From: Patescibacteria group bacterium
GTDB lineage: Bacteria; Patescibacteria; UBA1384; XYA2-FULL-43-10; 1-14-0-10-43-13
DNA: 45,659 bases
Reading direction: 5' to 3'
Assembly (NCBI GenBank): GCA_023484645.1
Contig: JAMCZZ010000037.1
Location: forward strand, 1 to 45,659
How positions within the stretch are numbered: position 1 is the stretch's first letter; the number at the start of each line of letters is the position of its first letter. The notes beneath the pieces were generated by a model. The model ran no database searches. It was not told the origin of the DNA and saw only the letters and a program-made list of their open reading frames with translations. This document shows, in pieces, positions 2,574 through 6,491 of the stretch. The translations under genes and the position numbers were made by a program.

Positions 2574-3956
2574 ATGTATAAAACATTTAAACGCCGATTT
2601 TCTTTTATTTTGCATAGACCTAAAAATAGGGTTGATTATGTTATGCACATAATCTTGAGCGGGTTTTTAGTAGTTGCAATTTTATCGTTCATCAATATTC
2701 TAATAGATAAATATTCTTCTCCACAAAATTATGACGGCGGTCCTCCATTATTGCATTTTGCGATAATTATTTTACTCTTTGTTGGCTTAAGAATGCTTCA
2801 CTCTAAATATTCCAAAATAGTAGGACATTGTTTTCTCTTACTGCTTCTGTCTTGCACAGCCTATATAATCATCGTTTCAGGCATCGAAAACCCATTCGCC
2901 TTATTGCTGATGTTTTTTTATATCGTATTGTCTTCAATGATATTTAAGGGCAAATATTATCTTGTTGCAGCATTCATTCTTTTTGCTGCGATTTTATTAT
3001 TAGCCATAGGCCAAGACAAATTGATTTTTCATCCTAATTTAGCGTGGAAAGTAGAAAGTTTTCCTCTTCAAGATACCGTCTCTTTGCTGATCATTTTAAT
3101 TATAATCGTTCTTATTTCATGGTTATTCAATCGTGAAATTAATAACTACATTCTTCGCCTCGAAGAATCGAAAAAGTTACTCAAAAAAGAACGGGATATG
3201 TTAGAAGAAAAAGTTAAAGAAAGAACAGCAGAATTGCGAACCGAACAAATAGATAGATTAGCGGAGCTTTCTAAATTAGCTGAATTTGGGCGGTTAGCTC
3301 AAGGATTGTTTCATGATTTAGTGAATCCGTTGACTGCTTTATCTCTAAATCTTAACCAAGCCAAAAAAGAAAAGGACACAACTAAGATAAAAAACTATCT
3401 TCAAGAAACAACATTTGCAGCCGAGAATATGCGAAAACTAATTGACTCAACTTTAAATTATTCTAAAGACATGATAGCCAAAGATTCATTTTCAATTACC
3501 GATGAACTTAAAAATATTGGATTAGTCTGTGGTTACAAAGCAAGACAAGCGGGAGTAAATTTAGTATTCCAAGATAAGAACGACATTAAACTGATTGGCA
3601 ATAAAACTAGATTTTCACAGTTAATTTCCAATCTGGTGTTAAATGCCGTTGAGGCTTATGAGCAACAAAAAGATAAGATAGCTGGCGATGTAAGTAAAAA
3701 AATTGTTATTAAGTTCTACAGCGAAAAAAATAATGTAGTGATCAAAATTACGGACAACGCCTTTGGGATACCGGAAAAAGTTAGGAAAAATATTTTTGAA
3801 CCATTTTATAGCACTAAAAAACATTTGGGTAACTCAGGCATTGGCCTATCTATGTGTAAAGACATAGTTGAATCTGATTTCGCAGGCAAGATTCAGGTAA
3901 AAAGCCAATCCGGAGAAGGTACTGAATTTATTATTACTATACCCCAAACACTTTAA
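2574..3956 (+). CDS. Membrane sensor histidine kinase
   Basis: 460 aa. The N-terminal half (about 22-185) has roughly six hydrophobic segments with short loops and no large periplasmic domain, suggesting membrane-embedded sensing. A coiled coil (about 190-232) leads to the dimerisation/phosphoacceptor box with His247 in LFHDLVNPLTAL. The ATPase domain has N357 in NLVLNAVEA, the G1 motif DNAFGIP, the F box FEPFYSTK and the G2 motif GNSGIGLS. A GGAG ribosome site lies 5 bases before the ATG. The gene is the natural partner of the response regulator at 1505 and is followed after 12 bases by the terpene-cyclase-like gene. Confidence 0.93.
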   Translation: MYKTFKRRFSFILHRPKNRVDYVMHIILSGFLVVAILSFINILIDKYSSPQNYDGGPPLLHFAIIILLFVGLRMLHSKYSKIVGHCFLLLLLSCTAYIIIVSGIENPFALLLMFFYIVLSSMIFKGKYYLVAAFILFAAILLLAIGQDKLIFHPNLAWKVESFPLQDTVSLLIILIIIVLISWLFNREINNYILRLEESKKLLKKERDMLEEKVKERTAELRTEQIDRLAELSKLAEFGRLAQGLFHDLVNPLTALSLNLNQAKKEKDTTKIKNYLQETTFAAENMRKLIDSTLNYSKDMIAKDSFSITDELKNIGLVCGYKARQAGVNLVFQDKNDIKLIGNKTRFSQLISNLVLNAVEAYEQQKDKIAGDVSKKIVIKFYSEKNNVVIKITDNAFGIPEKVRKNIFEPFYSTKKHLGNSGIGLSMCKDIVESDFAGKIQVKSQSGEGTEFIITIPQTL

Positions 3957-3968
3957 AGATGAAGTACG

Positions 3969-5891
3969 ATGTTTAATGAAAAGAATATTAACGATGCAAT
4001 ACTAAAAGGCATTCGATTCATCGCTTGGCAGCAAAACGACAATGGATCCTTTTACAGTCAATCTTCGAAGAGTTTTAAACTTACTCATCCTAAAAAATTT
4101 ATCACGACCTTTTACACTTCATTAATTCTATATTGCATTTCTCAAGTTGATAATCCAAAATCCCTACTTCCTAAGGATAAGGCTTGTAATTTTTTATTGT
4201 CAGAAAAAAGTAAACTTGGAACTTATAACTATTGGGCTAAGTGTTTTATTAAATATAAAACTGAATCTTGCCCTGACGACTTGGATGATACTTCCTGCGC
4301 TTTTTCTGCTTTGCTTTCTGTAAACCGAAACCTGATAAATGAAGAGGAACTAGCAAGCATTACCAAGGTATTGATAAATTCAGAGTCCAAAGAAGGCGGA
4401 CCTTATTTTACTTGGATTGTACCAAAAGACGCTGATCCAAAATGGAAAGACGTGGACTTGGCTGTTAATTCCAATATCGGATTATTTCTCTCTATACTTG
4501 GAATAAGACTTCCGAGTATAGATGATTTAATTGAAAAAGCGATTGTCAATAATAACTTTGCCTCAACCTATTATCCTGATTATTCAACTCTATATTTTAT
4601 CTCCAGGTTTTATAGAGGTAAATTAAAAAAGAAGCTTGCTCAGATTCTTAAAAAAGAAAATTCTAAACCTTTTGAAAATTCTCTGGAATGCGCCCTTCTT
4701 GGGATCTCTTTGCTAAATATTGGCGAAAAACATAGTATGGTCGAAAATAATATCGACTATTTATTGAAGAATCAAAAGAAAAATGGATCTTTTGGAACAT
4801 ATACATTTATTCTCGAACAAACATATGAAAAAAATAAAAGATTTTCTGGGTCGGAGGCTTTTACTGCAGCTTTAGCTGTGGAGTTAATAACAAAATATGA
4901 AAGTTTACAGCCCAGTAAAAAAAGTATGACAAAATATGATAACCTATCAATTTTAAAACAAAAGGTTGTTAGCCATGCTGGCGGCGACTCCCAATATAGA
5001 TTTGATGATGATTTAACAAAACAATTCGATAGTTTTTTAAATAAAGTCGTACAGTCTGATCAAGACGGACAAATCATTATTCACCCGTATTTATTCATGG
5101 ACTCCCTTAAAAAGAAATTTTTTATTAAAAAAAACGAAAGTTTTTTGCTTGATACTGCTGTTGCCGGAATATTTGGTTGGCTGTCTTACACAATTTTTGA
5201 CAATATTATTGATGAAAAAAAAGATTTAGATAAACTTTCTTTAGCCATAATCTGCAATCGGGAATTAGAAAAATTATTCTGCAAGAACAACCCGGACTTT
5301 CGTTCTATCTTTCAAAAATTCATGGACAAGGTGGATTACGCTAATTTCTATGAATTTAGATACGCTCGGTTTAATCAGAAAACAGGCTTTCCTAAAAAAA
5401 ATATTTATCCAAATGTTGAGTTTGTCGCCGATAAATCCATAGCTCATTGTCTTGGGCCCCTATCAATTATGACCAAGCTTGGTTTTTCTCCCGAAAGTAA
5501 AGAGTTTCAAAATTTACTTTCTTTTTATCAAAATTATCTGACCGCAAGGCAATTAAATGATGATGCGCACGATTGGGAAGAGGATTTGATACGAGGACAA
5601 ATCAATTATGCAGGAGAAGCTCTGCTTAGGGATTTTGAAAACAAAAATGGTAAAAAGGCCGATCTTCCAAAGGATCTGGTCAAGCTGAGAAAGCTTTTTT
5701 GGGGAAAGACCATCCTAGAAATTTGTGCGATAATTCAAAATAAAATTACAGAAGCGAAAAAAGACCTTTTCTCGCTTGCTGAAATATTAGATCAAAATTA
5801 TCTTAAAAATAAACTGGATGAGTTAGAAGGATCTGCAAAGAAGGCCATCAGAGAAAGAGGGAAAACAAAGCGGTTTTTAGACGCTTTGTAA
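3969..5891 (+). CDS. Terpene-cyclase-like protein: class II DxDD domain plus class I-like helical domain
   Basis: 640 aa. The N-terminal part (about 1-320) resembles the squalene-hopene/diterpene cyclase alpha-barrel fold: QW-like repeats at 21-28 (QQNDNGSF) and 269-276 (QKKNGSFG), and DLDDTS at 104-109, which matches the DxDD(T/S) acid motif of class II terpene cyclases. The C-terminal part (about 385-640) has DNIID at 411-415 after a helical run and NDDAHDWEED at 530-539, resembling the aspartate-rich metal sites of class I isoprenoid synthases. A prenyl diphosphate cyclisation role is therefore predicted; substrate and product are unknown. It begins 12 bases after the kinase stop, so it is probably co-transcribed with the kinase. 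Domain calls come from motifs only. Confidence 0.7.
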   Translation: MFNEKNINDAILKGIRFIAWQQNDNGSFYSQSSKSFKLTHPKKFITTFYTSLILYCISQVDNPKSLLPKDKACNFLLSEKSKLGTYNYWAKCFIKYKTESCPDDLDDTSCAFSALLSVNRNLINEEELASITKVLINSESKEGGPYFTWIVPKDADPKWKDVDLAVNSNIGLFLSILGIRLPSIDDLIEKAIVNNNFASTYYPDYSTLYFISRFYRGKLKKKLAQILKKENSKPFENSLECALLGISLLNIGEKHSMVENNIDYLLKNQKKNGSFGTYTFILEQTYEKNKRFSGSEAFTAALAVELITKYESLQPSKKSMTKYDNLSILKQKVVSHAGGDSQYRFDDDLTKQFDSFLNKVVQSDQDGQIIIHPYLFMDSLKKKFFIKKNESFLLDTAVAGIFGWLSYTIFDNIIDEKKDLDKLSLAIICNRELEKLFCKNNPDFRSIFQKFMDKVDYANFYEFRYARFNQKTGFPKKNIYPNVEFVADKSIAHCLGPLSIMTKLGFSPESKEFQNLLSFYQNYLTARQLNDDAHDWEEDLIRGQINYAGEALLRDFENKNGKKADLPKDLVKLRKLFWGKTILEICAIIQNKITEAKKDLFSLAEILDQNYLKNKLDELEGSAKKAIRERGKTKRFLDAL

Positions 5892-5936: not shown

Positions 5937-6491
5937 ATGGAAAATCAAAAAATTAAGATATTGGGAGTCGCCGGCAGCTTGAGAAAAGGTTCATATAATA
6001 AAATGCTTTTAAAGGAAGCATTAAGACTAGCACCGAAAGATGTCGAAATAAATATTTTTGATATTAAAGACATTCCATTATTCAATCAAGACTTAGAGCT
6101 TAATTTACCAAAATCTGTAATCAATCTGAAAAATAAAATTAAAGAATCGGATGCAATTTTGCTTGTTACGCCTGAGTACAATTACTCAATCCCTGGAGTA
6201 TTAAAAAATGTAATAGATTGGGGATCCCGCCCTTATGGAAACAATTCTTGGGATAAAAAACCAGTTGCCATTATGGGCGCTTCCATAGGAGGTTTCGGTA
6301 CAATTAGGGCTCAGACACACTTAAGGCAAACCTTTATCTTTACTAATATGTTTCCAATCAATAACGAACTTTTTGTTTCCCGTGCAAATGGAAAATTTGA
6401 TCAGAACGGCAACCTGACCGACAATGAAATAAGAGAAAAAATTATAGTTTTGCTGCAGAATTTAGTAGATTGGACAAAAAAATTAAAATAA
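5937..6491 (+). CDS. NADPH-dependent FMN reductase (flavodoxin-like, ChrR/YieF type)
   Basis: 184 aa, full length. The flavin phosphate loop is GSLRKGSYN (13-21), and the family signature PEYNYSIPGVLKNVIDW follows around 78-94; GASIGGFGTIRAQ (about 117-129) is also typical. It should bind FMN and transfer electrons from NAD(P)H to quinones, metals or other flavins. The gene lies 45 bases after the terpene-cyclase-like gene and has its own TATAAT (5897-5902) but no clear ribosome site. It ends 13 bases from the convergent bactofilin-like gene. A role with the upstream terpenoid gene is possible but unproven. Confidence 0.9.
   Translation: MENQKIKILGVAGSLRKGSYNKMLLKEALRLAPKDVEINIFDIKDIPLFNQDLELNLPKSVINLKNKIKESDAILLVTPEYNYSIPGVLKNVIDWGSRPYGNNSWDKKPVAIMGASIGGFGTIRAQTHLRQTFIFTNMFPINNELFVSRANGKFDQNGNLTDNEIREKIIVLLQNLVDWTKKLK

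Follow-up and report, generated by a model that had tools for sequence, protein, structure and literature searches.

What does a protein that carries both the acidic motif of class II terpene cyclases and Asp-rich metal-binding motifs do when it is encoded directly behind a sensor kinase in a genome of the candidate phyla radiation (CPR)? The question is raised by a locus near one end of contig JAMCZZ010000037.1 of the Patescibacteria assembly GCA_023484645.1, a stretch of 45,659 nucleotides referred to here as the window. A first-pass annotation had placed a 640-residue enzyme 12 bases behind a two-component kinase, and this is confirmed: the open reading frame (ORF) of the kinase (460 residues; Pfam HisKA and HATPase_c) occupies positions 2574–3956 and that of the enzyme 3969–5891. 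Upstream of both lies a gene for an OmpR-family response regulator of 224 residues (1505–2179; Pfam Response_reg, 2.6e-26, and Trans_reg_C, 2.2e-23), and the gap between regulator and kinase holds a 39-residue ORF that the annotation had missed (2323–2442; MVEIMAQMLTNKEARSKKAAEEVAVKHASDPLVFWSSLS), behind a Shine-Dalgarno-like AAGGAGG read directly from the sequence at 2312–2318. All four genes are on the forward strand. With a probability that we put at about 0.7, they form a signalling circuit of CPR bacteria which resembles the ComQXPA system and employs a terpene-tagged peptide; the enzyme is most likely the maturase of that peptide signal, and not a synthase of some free terpenoid.

The small ORF proves to belong to a family. 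In the window its product has a leader resembling xLTxKxAR and a Trp fifth from the C-terminal end, and across the related loci (70 in all, namely 69 found by the scan described below together with the window) the gap between regulator and kinase, 133–413 bases long in the 49 loci where it was measured, contains a small ORF. A hidden Markov model (HMM) of the leader, for which 51 seed peptides each supplied their first 22 residues, was run against 34,883 small segments from the loci; it matches 59 loci at E < 0.1 (the window peptide, itself a seed and part of the family alignment, at 5.4e-6) and one more, L016, at 0.7, the first unrelated match coming at 0.92. The peptide is recovered in this way in 60 of the 61 loci that have sequence upstream of the kinase, while for the single one missed (L051) an ORF ending EFAPWND was read by eye, as were the peptides of L098 and L141, which also have no HMM match. 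Left out of these upstream counts are six loci where the enzyme starts 433 bases or less from the contig start and no kinase is seen (L021, L027, L052, L055, L059 and L062) and two on contigs that begin within the kinase or close to it (L007 and L068); L009, which has an ORF between kinase and enzyme, is left out of the peptide count.

Every one of the 60 peptides recovered by the HMM has a Trp inside its last 8 residues, and all 61 (L085 included) have one inside the last 12, against 17.6% of 14,557 background segments. The last Trp is immediately preceded by Pro in 48 of the 61; it stands third or fourth from the end in 26, most commonly third (17), and is the final residue in just one. As the seeds were chosen by a score that rewards a C-terminal Trp (one of them, L054, has a second Trp within its first 22 residues), fairer counts are provided by the 10 non-seed peptides, among them L016, added by hand, and the further locus L085, and by four further loci kept out of the HMM building (L099–L102); Trp is present in all of these. 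(L103 and L085 denote one place, and L104–L106 duplicate L065, L014 and L029.) When 30 of the 61 peptides were scanned against Pfam and NCBIfam at E 0.1, neither ComX nor any other family was found to describe them, single weak matches being all that appeared.

An ORF situated just 5' of a kinase gene and containing one conserved Trp codon might also be a translated, attenuator-like regulatory leader that controls kinase and enzyme together and whose protein product does not matter. We consider this highly improbable: there is usually only one Trp codon (in 57 of the 61 peptides, counting the last 25 residues), the leader is recognisable as a protein sequence throughout the phylum, codon changes in 64 peptide pairs fall most often in third position (1398, against 887 and 655 in the other two), and L103 has the ORF without a kinase gene behind it.

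The whole set is widespread within the CPR, and the suggestion that the window belongs to a CPR-like genome and that its enzyme is tied to a two-component system is borne out. When 5.8 billion proteins were searched, 324 of the 7,997 candidates scored proved to be relatives of the enzyme; an organism is named for 12 of the 120 relatives listed, the names being those of CPR or Patescibacteria groups in 10 cases and simply "bacterium" in two. From 91 pattern matches in a scan that took one genome per species, 69 enzyme loci were confirmed, a number to be taken as a lower bound because the scan demands exact short patterns. Named CPR lineages, including Saccharibacteria, Parcubacteria and Microgenomates, account for 62 of the 69, the others (L016, L027, L028, L031, L040, L043 and L068) having no label beyond "bacterium" or "uncultured bacterium". 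When 379 genomes sampled evenly over the phylum were searched, 21 matched the enzyme profile at E ≤ 0.001, 18 of them strongly. Among the strong matches G388 proves to be a class II-only protein, while G378, from the three weak ones, is an alpha-only member (domains as defined below); the enzyme thus occurs in about 5% of the sampled genomes (18 strong matches in 379, plus the weaker G378). Viral contigs yielded 14 pattern matches, none of them a relative of the enzyme.

The usual gene order across these genomes is regulator, peptide, kinase, enzyme. A kinase precedes the enzyme in 63 of the 70 loci, or 63 of the 64 that have upstream sequence; the seven where it does not are the six already mentioned in which the enzyme lies close to the contig start and L009, in which a 238-residue ORF (L009:1635-2351) intervenes. 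Members of the single-linkage cluster of the regulator occur somewhere in 59 of the 70 loci, mostly as the first gene of the set, while in some (e.g. L028, L039 and L057) the regulator is downstream or none is seen beside the set.

Turning to the enzyme itself, it consists of an N-terminal class II cyclase (beta) domain (residues 1–314; 3969–4910) and a C-terminal domain resembling trans-prenyl synthases (alpha; residues 322–640; 4932–5888). The class II motif DLDDTS named in the first-pass annotation is secure: DLDD occupies residues 104–107 (4278–4289), DLDDT residues 104–108, and D104, D106 and T108 are each conserved in 77 of 77 rows of the enzyme alignment. The alpha domain has a first Asp-rich motif, DNIID (residues 411–415; 5199–5213), with D411 and D415 invariant, and a second, QLNDDAHDWEED (residues 528–539; 5550–5585, the part NDDAHDWEED being residues 530–539), in which Q528, D531, H534, D535 and D539 are likewise each present in 77 of 77 rows. 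These Asp motifs are far from chance. The second has the form QxxDDxxDxxxD, invariant save for D532 (76 of 77 rows), and resembles the second Asp-rich motif of trans-prenyl synthases; in the first, of the DDxxD type, the second Asp is replaced by Asn in the window enzyme and in 21 of the 77 rows. Class I terpene synthases have an NSE/DTE metal motif, and here the claim of class I-like metal sites stands only in part, since both Asp-rich motifs are real but the second fails as an NSE motif, E538 being Glu in just 26 of 77 rows. The QW-like repeats that had also been proposed appear in Pfam only as sub-threshold matches (SQHop_cyclase_C, 0.049; TED_complement, 5.6e-4).

A search of the Protein Data Bank (PDB) with the single enzyme sequence gave no match. 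Fold comparison, which the earlier annotation had suggested as a check, makes the beta domain an alpha-alpha barrel of the single beta-domain class II type, closest to the drimenol synthase AsDMS, with the class II general acid (DxDD/DxDTT) present and D106 aligned with D333 of AsDMS. The alpha domain has the trans-prenyl-synthase fold with both Asp-rich motifs, an alignment of alpha domains alone matching the PDB at E 2.8e-4, and it is a relative of the trans-prenyl synthases; a comparison by hhalign with 13 prenyl synthases encoded near members of the set gave only a local and weak match (probability 4.7). Canonical trans-prenyl diphosphate synthases have an isopentenyl diphosphate-site GGKxxR, and RRG after the first motif. 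As judged by eye, both are absent from the family consensus of the enzyme and present in most of the neighbouring prenyl synthases.

The idea of a bifunctional class II/class I enzyme therefore survives insofar as a class II domain and a metal-dependent isoprenoid-synthase domain are joined in one protein, while its corollary, a diterpene synthase releasing free terpenoid, is not supported. Such an enzyme, with its product sensed by the kinase or acting in the membrane and the peptide being an unrelated small protein or regulatory leader, would be in keeping with the class II fold and motif, and one homologue, P0100, narrowly exceeds the Pfam cut-offs for two terpene synthase C-domains (26.6 against 26.3 and 24.2 against 23.7 bits). 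It is nevertheless improbable, given the lack of an NSE motif in the alpha domain, the conserved Trp of a peptide that accompanies the enzyme, and the absence of the class II motif from 12 of 72 enzymes, 11 of which have the peptide. (A small-molecule autoinducer synthase was an early idea, dropped once the peptide had appeared.) It is because the NSE motif is missing, the alpha domain is related to trans-prenyl synthases and a Trp-ending peptide is linked to it that we read the enzyme as a prenyltransferase acting on the peptide Trp, combined with a cyclase.

The census behind these last figures covers the 72 enzyme ORFs that have not lost their start to a contig end. Of these, 60 keep the class II Asp pair, whereas 70 have the alpha-domain motif and the remaining two are truncated at a contig end. 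For the 12 enzymes without the class II motif the peptide was found by the HMM in 10 and by eye in L098, while L068 has no upstream sequence. There are even alpha-only versions of the size of ComQ, of 279 and 301 residues, alongside peptides ending PGTPWRS and LPWY: the first peptide is the 22-residue ORF of the alpha-only set in L098, and the second a 27-residue ORF which follows AAAGGAG in the regulator-kinase gap of G414, whose 301-residue enzyme is divergent. Since the class II pair is missing from some enzymes and the alpha motif persistent, the alpha domain and the peptide look like the core of the system and the class II domain like an extra, which looks like what would be expected if alpha attaches a chain and beta cyclises it. 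A 340-residue class II-cyclase-like protein that has a hydrophobic stretch at its N-terminus and lacks the alpha domain (L087:1507-2529, the same as L095 and found in G388) was rejected as a full member, being class II-only and having no kinase within the stretch of sequence examined.

The circuit that we infer would run as follows. The product of the 39-residue gene would serve as precursor, its leader conserved and its Trp close to the C-terminus; the alpha domain would ionise a prenyl diphosphate and attach its chain to the Trp, after which D106 of the beta domain would protonate the chain at its far end and so bring about cyclisation. The terpene-tagged peptide, once trimmed, would be exported and then sensed by a kinase with six transmembrane (TM) segments, which would phosphorylate the OmpR-type regulator and thereby, presumably, alter the expression of its target genes. 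In this picture the gene order, the peptide family, the two folds, the catalytic motifs and the association of peptide with enzyme are what the computation shows; the rest, including the prenyl-Trp product, the order of the two reactions and the length of the chain, is our reading of it.

The obvious comparison is with ComQXPA of Bacillus, in which ComQ attaches a geranyl or farnesyl group to a Trp third or fourth from the end of ComX, whose precursor has 53–58 residues, and in which ComQ has the first Asp-rich motif and only a pseudo-motif in place of the second (PMC5331326); a 2014 census has ComQXPA-like loci in Firmicutes only, and ComP is given 8–10 TM helices (PMC4008528). In both systems adjacent genes on one strand encode enzyme, precursor, kinase and regulator, the precursor is short with a Trp near its C-terminus, and a multi-TM kinase accompanies a prenyl-synthase-like Trp prenyltransferase (an activity that is putative for the CPR enzyme). 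The CPR set differs from ComQXPA in its gene order and OmpR-type regulator, in the six TM segments of the window kinase as against the number described for ComP, in peptides without a ComX family match among the 30 scanned, and in an enzyme that is fused to a class II cyclase and has its second Asp-rich motif complete. It most likely works like ComQXPA without, by tests of membership, being a member of it.

Further precedents for the chemistry are found among enzymes making ribosomally synthesised and post-translationally modified peptides (RiPPs). In ChrPC a P domain resembling trans-isoprenyl diphosphate synthases prenylates an internal Trp and the C domain then cyclises the chain; the C domain of NctPC resembles MstE, and recognition of the Trp is linked to a Gln that lies upstream of the second Asp-rich motif (PMC13290415, a 2026 review citing Hubrich et al. 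2024 for ChrPC). The CPR enzyme has a trans-prenyl-synthase-like and a class II domain and is accompanied by a Trp-containing precursor, on which it is predicted to act in the same way; it differs, as far as ChrPC can be compared from its description, in having the cyclase domain at the N-terminus and closest to AsDMS, and in its CPR host and linkage to a kinase and regulator. AsDMS itself, whose class II domain sits in a protein named for the HAD family, has the same single beta-domain fold and a PDDLDxT motif with its acid aligned to that of the CPR enzyme, in which the partner domain is however a prenyl-synthase fold and not HAD. The related Trp prenyltransferase PalQ has residues Q197, D200 and D204 (PMC10853753), spaced as Q528, D531 and D535, and the alpha-only CPR enzymes provide a further likeness; PalQ requires Trp as the last residue, in contrast to the CPR peptides. 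Because ComQ and ChrPC prenylate a peptide Trp, and ChrPC also cyclises, the chemistry has precedent, whereas the CPR-wide circuit, the peptide family and the pairing with a kinase appear to be new: no combination of a prenylated-peptide enzyme with a kinase-regulator pair in CPR was found in the literature, within limited open-access coverage.

As to sensing, the window kinase has six TM-like segments by hydropathy (residues 26–185) followed by HisKA and HATPase_c, and its AlphaFold2 model has a mean predicted local distance difference test score of 88.3 and a predicted template modelling score of 0.59. Compared with the PDB, the model matches HK853 and others in its kinase part; the 50 matches listed all cover the kinase core and none the sensor. 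A search with the sensor part in the 379 genomes gave 34 matches, 21 of them strong, of which 15 were in genomes with an enzyme-profile match and six were not. The sixth of these outsiders is G414, described above; the other five have neither the enzyme nor a peptide of the family in the 5–7 kb read for each, and in four of the five the regulator abuts the kinase (two with gaps of 51 and 46 bases and two overlapping), the fifth having no adjoining regulator. These controls have two blemishes: in L137 there is a leader-HMM match at E 0.029, which lies some 1.5 kb away from the kinase on the opposite strand and has no Trp, and in L142 a chance-looking 14-residue ORF ending TSWG lies directly 5' of the kinase.

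Over the 53 loci common to the peptide, kinase and enzyme alignments, similarity in the 13-residue peptide core correlates with similarity in the membrane part of the kinase once kinase-core and enzyme similarity have been removed (partial r 0.147, permutation p 0.0035), while in the same loci it correlates neither with the kinase core (p 0.22) nor with the enzyme (p 0.34). The sensor-peptide correlation is thus small but specific. It bears on the proposal that the product is a terpene-modified RiPP, antimicrobial or directed at the host, with the two-component system controlling production or immunity and perhaps responding to it secondarily. Many CPR live on hosts, which would suit such a product, and transporters that could export it (ABC type in 18 of the 70 loci, MFS proteins in 8) are to be found. 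Enzymes of the P-C fusion type such as ChrPC do modify ribosomal peptides (PMC13290415). Against this proposal, the transporters are inconstant, ABC transporters lying within 2.5 kb of the enzyme in just 9 of 70 loci, where the kinase is constant, and the sensor-peptide correlation also speaks against it; we regard the RiPP proposal as rather unlikely.

If the signal is isoprenoid, its source needs consideration. The expectation that CPR are poor in isoprenoid synthesis is upheld as regards precursors, for among the genomes of 45 of the 69 loci IspH was found in five and HMG-CoA reductase in three different ones; it does not extend to prenyl diphosphate synthases, present in 37 of the 45. A prenyl synthase gene lies within 13 of the 70 loci, mostly adjoining the set, and in the 379-genome sample one occurs in 11 of the 18 strong carriers against 93 of the other 361 genomes (Fisher p 0.002). 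Within the window no isoprenoid gene was recognised by BLAST with 13 prenyl synthases or by Pfam on seven ORFs. Absences in carriers are soft, as many of the genomes are metagenome bins of unstated completeness, and it may be that isoprenoid precursors are taken from hosts. Since few carriers show precursor synthesis, scavenged host isoprenoid suggests itself as the building block. More tentatively, and at somewhat less than even odds, the set would be a dedicated cell-cell signal of CPR, evolved apart from ComQXPA and using as its pheromone a ribosomal peptide that bears a polycyclic terpene on Trp; it would report both the density of kin and the supply from the host. Were this true, a peptide quorum-sensing system would extend over Saccharibacteria, Parcubacteria, Microgenomates and other CPR lineages; organisms about whose social life very little is known would be given a concrete predicted signal, namely a terpenoid attached to a C-terminal Trp, prenyl synthases in genomes with no visible isoprenoid synthesis would gain a possible role, and more than 60 natural enzyme-peptide pairs would be available as a resource for prenylation and cyclisation chemistry.

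Several observations weigh against the signalling circuit proposed here. The sensor-peptide correlation is weak, and the peptides are only moderately conserved, since non-synonymous codon differences between pairs (1087) exceed synonymous ones (637). No exporter or protease is constant across the 70 loci, a prenyl synthase went undetected in eight of the 45 carriers, and at one locus (L103:486-2037, in G384) enzyme and peptide occur with no adjacent kinase or regulator. As for the enzyme, its second motif is a full DDxxD in contrast to that of ComQ, and the Gln upstream of it is non-discriminating, because it is also found in the ordinary prenyl synthases nearby.

In the regulator-kinase gaps (2180–2573 in the window) of the 49 loci, direct repeats at 11-bp spacing are in excess: 6-mers in 13 of 49, against 4.8 expected, 7-mers in 10 against 1.4 and 8-mers in 5 against 0.5. 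These are possible sites for the OmpR-type regulator, which would mean autoinduction.

Among other fusions of prenyl-synthase type in CPR, a 672-residue protein (L093:1416-3434) joins a nucleoside-deoxyribosyltransferase-like domain to a polyprenyl-synthase-like one, and a 669-residue protein (L094:293-2302) looks similar by eye; both were rejected as unrelated to the family. In Nomurabacteria (L030, L038, L041, L042, L045 and L048) a YihY-like protein is repeatedly encoded just 3' of the enzyme, with ABC transporters within 2.5 kb. In the window the enzyme is followed, as had been noted, by an FMN reductase ORF (5937–6491; Pfam FMN_red, 7.1e-44, with an ArsH-like match below its cut-off), a gene outside the 45 most widespread gene clusters of the loci, and positions 77–439 encode a cupredoxin-like protein (Cupredoxin_1, 9.1e-18) with a hydrophobic segment at its N-terminus.

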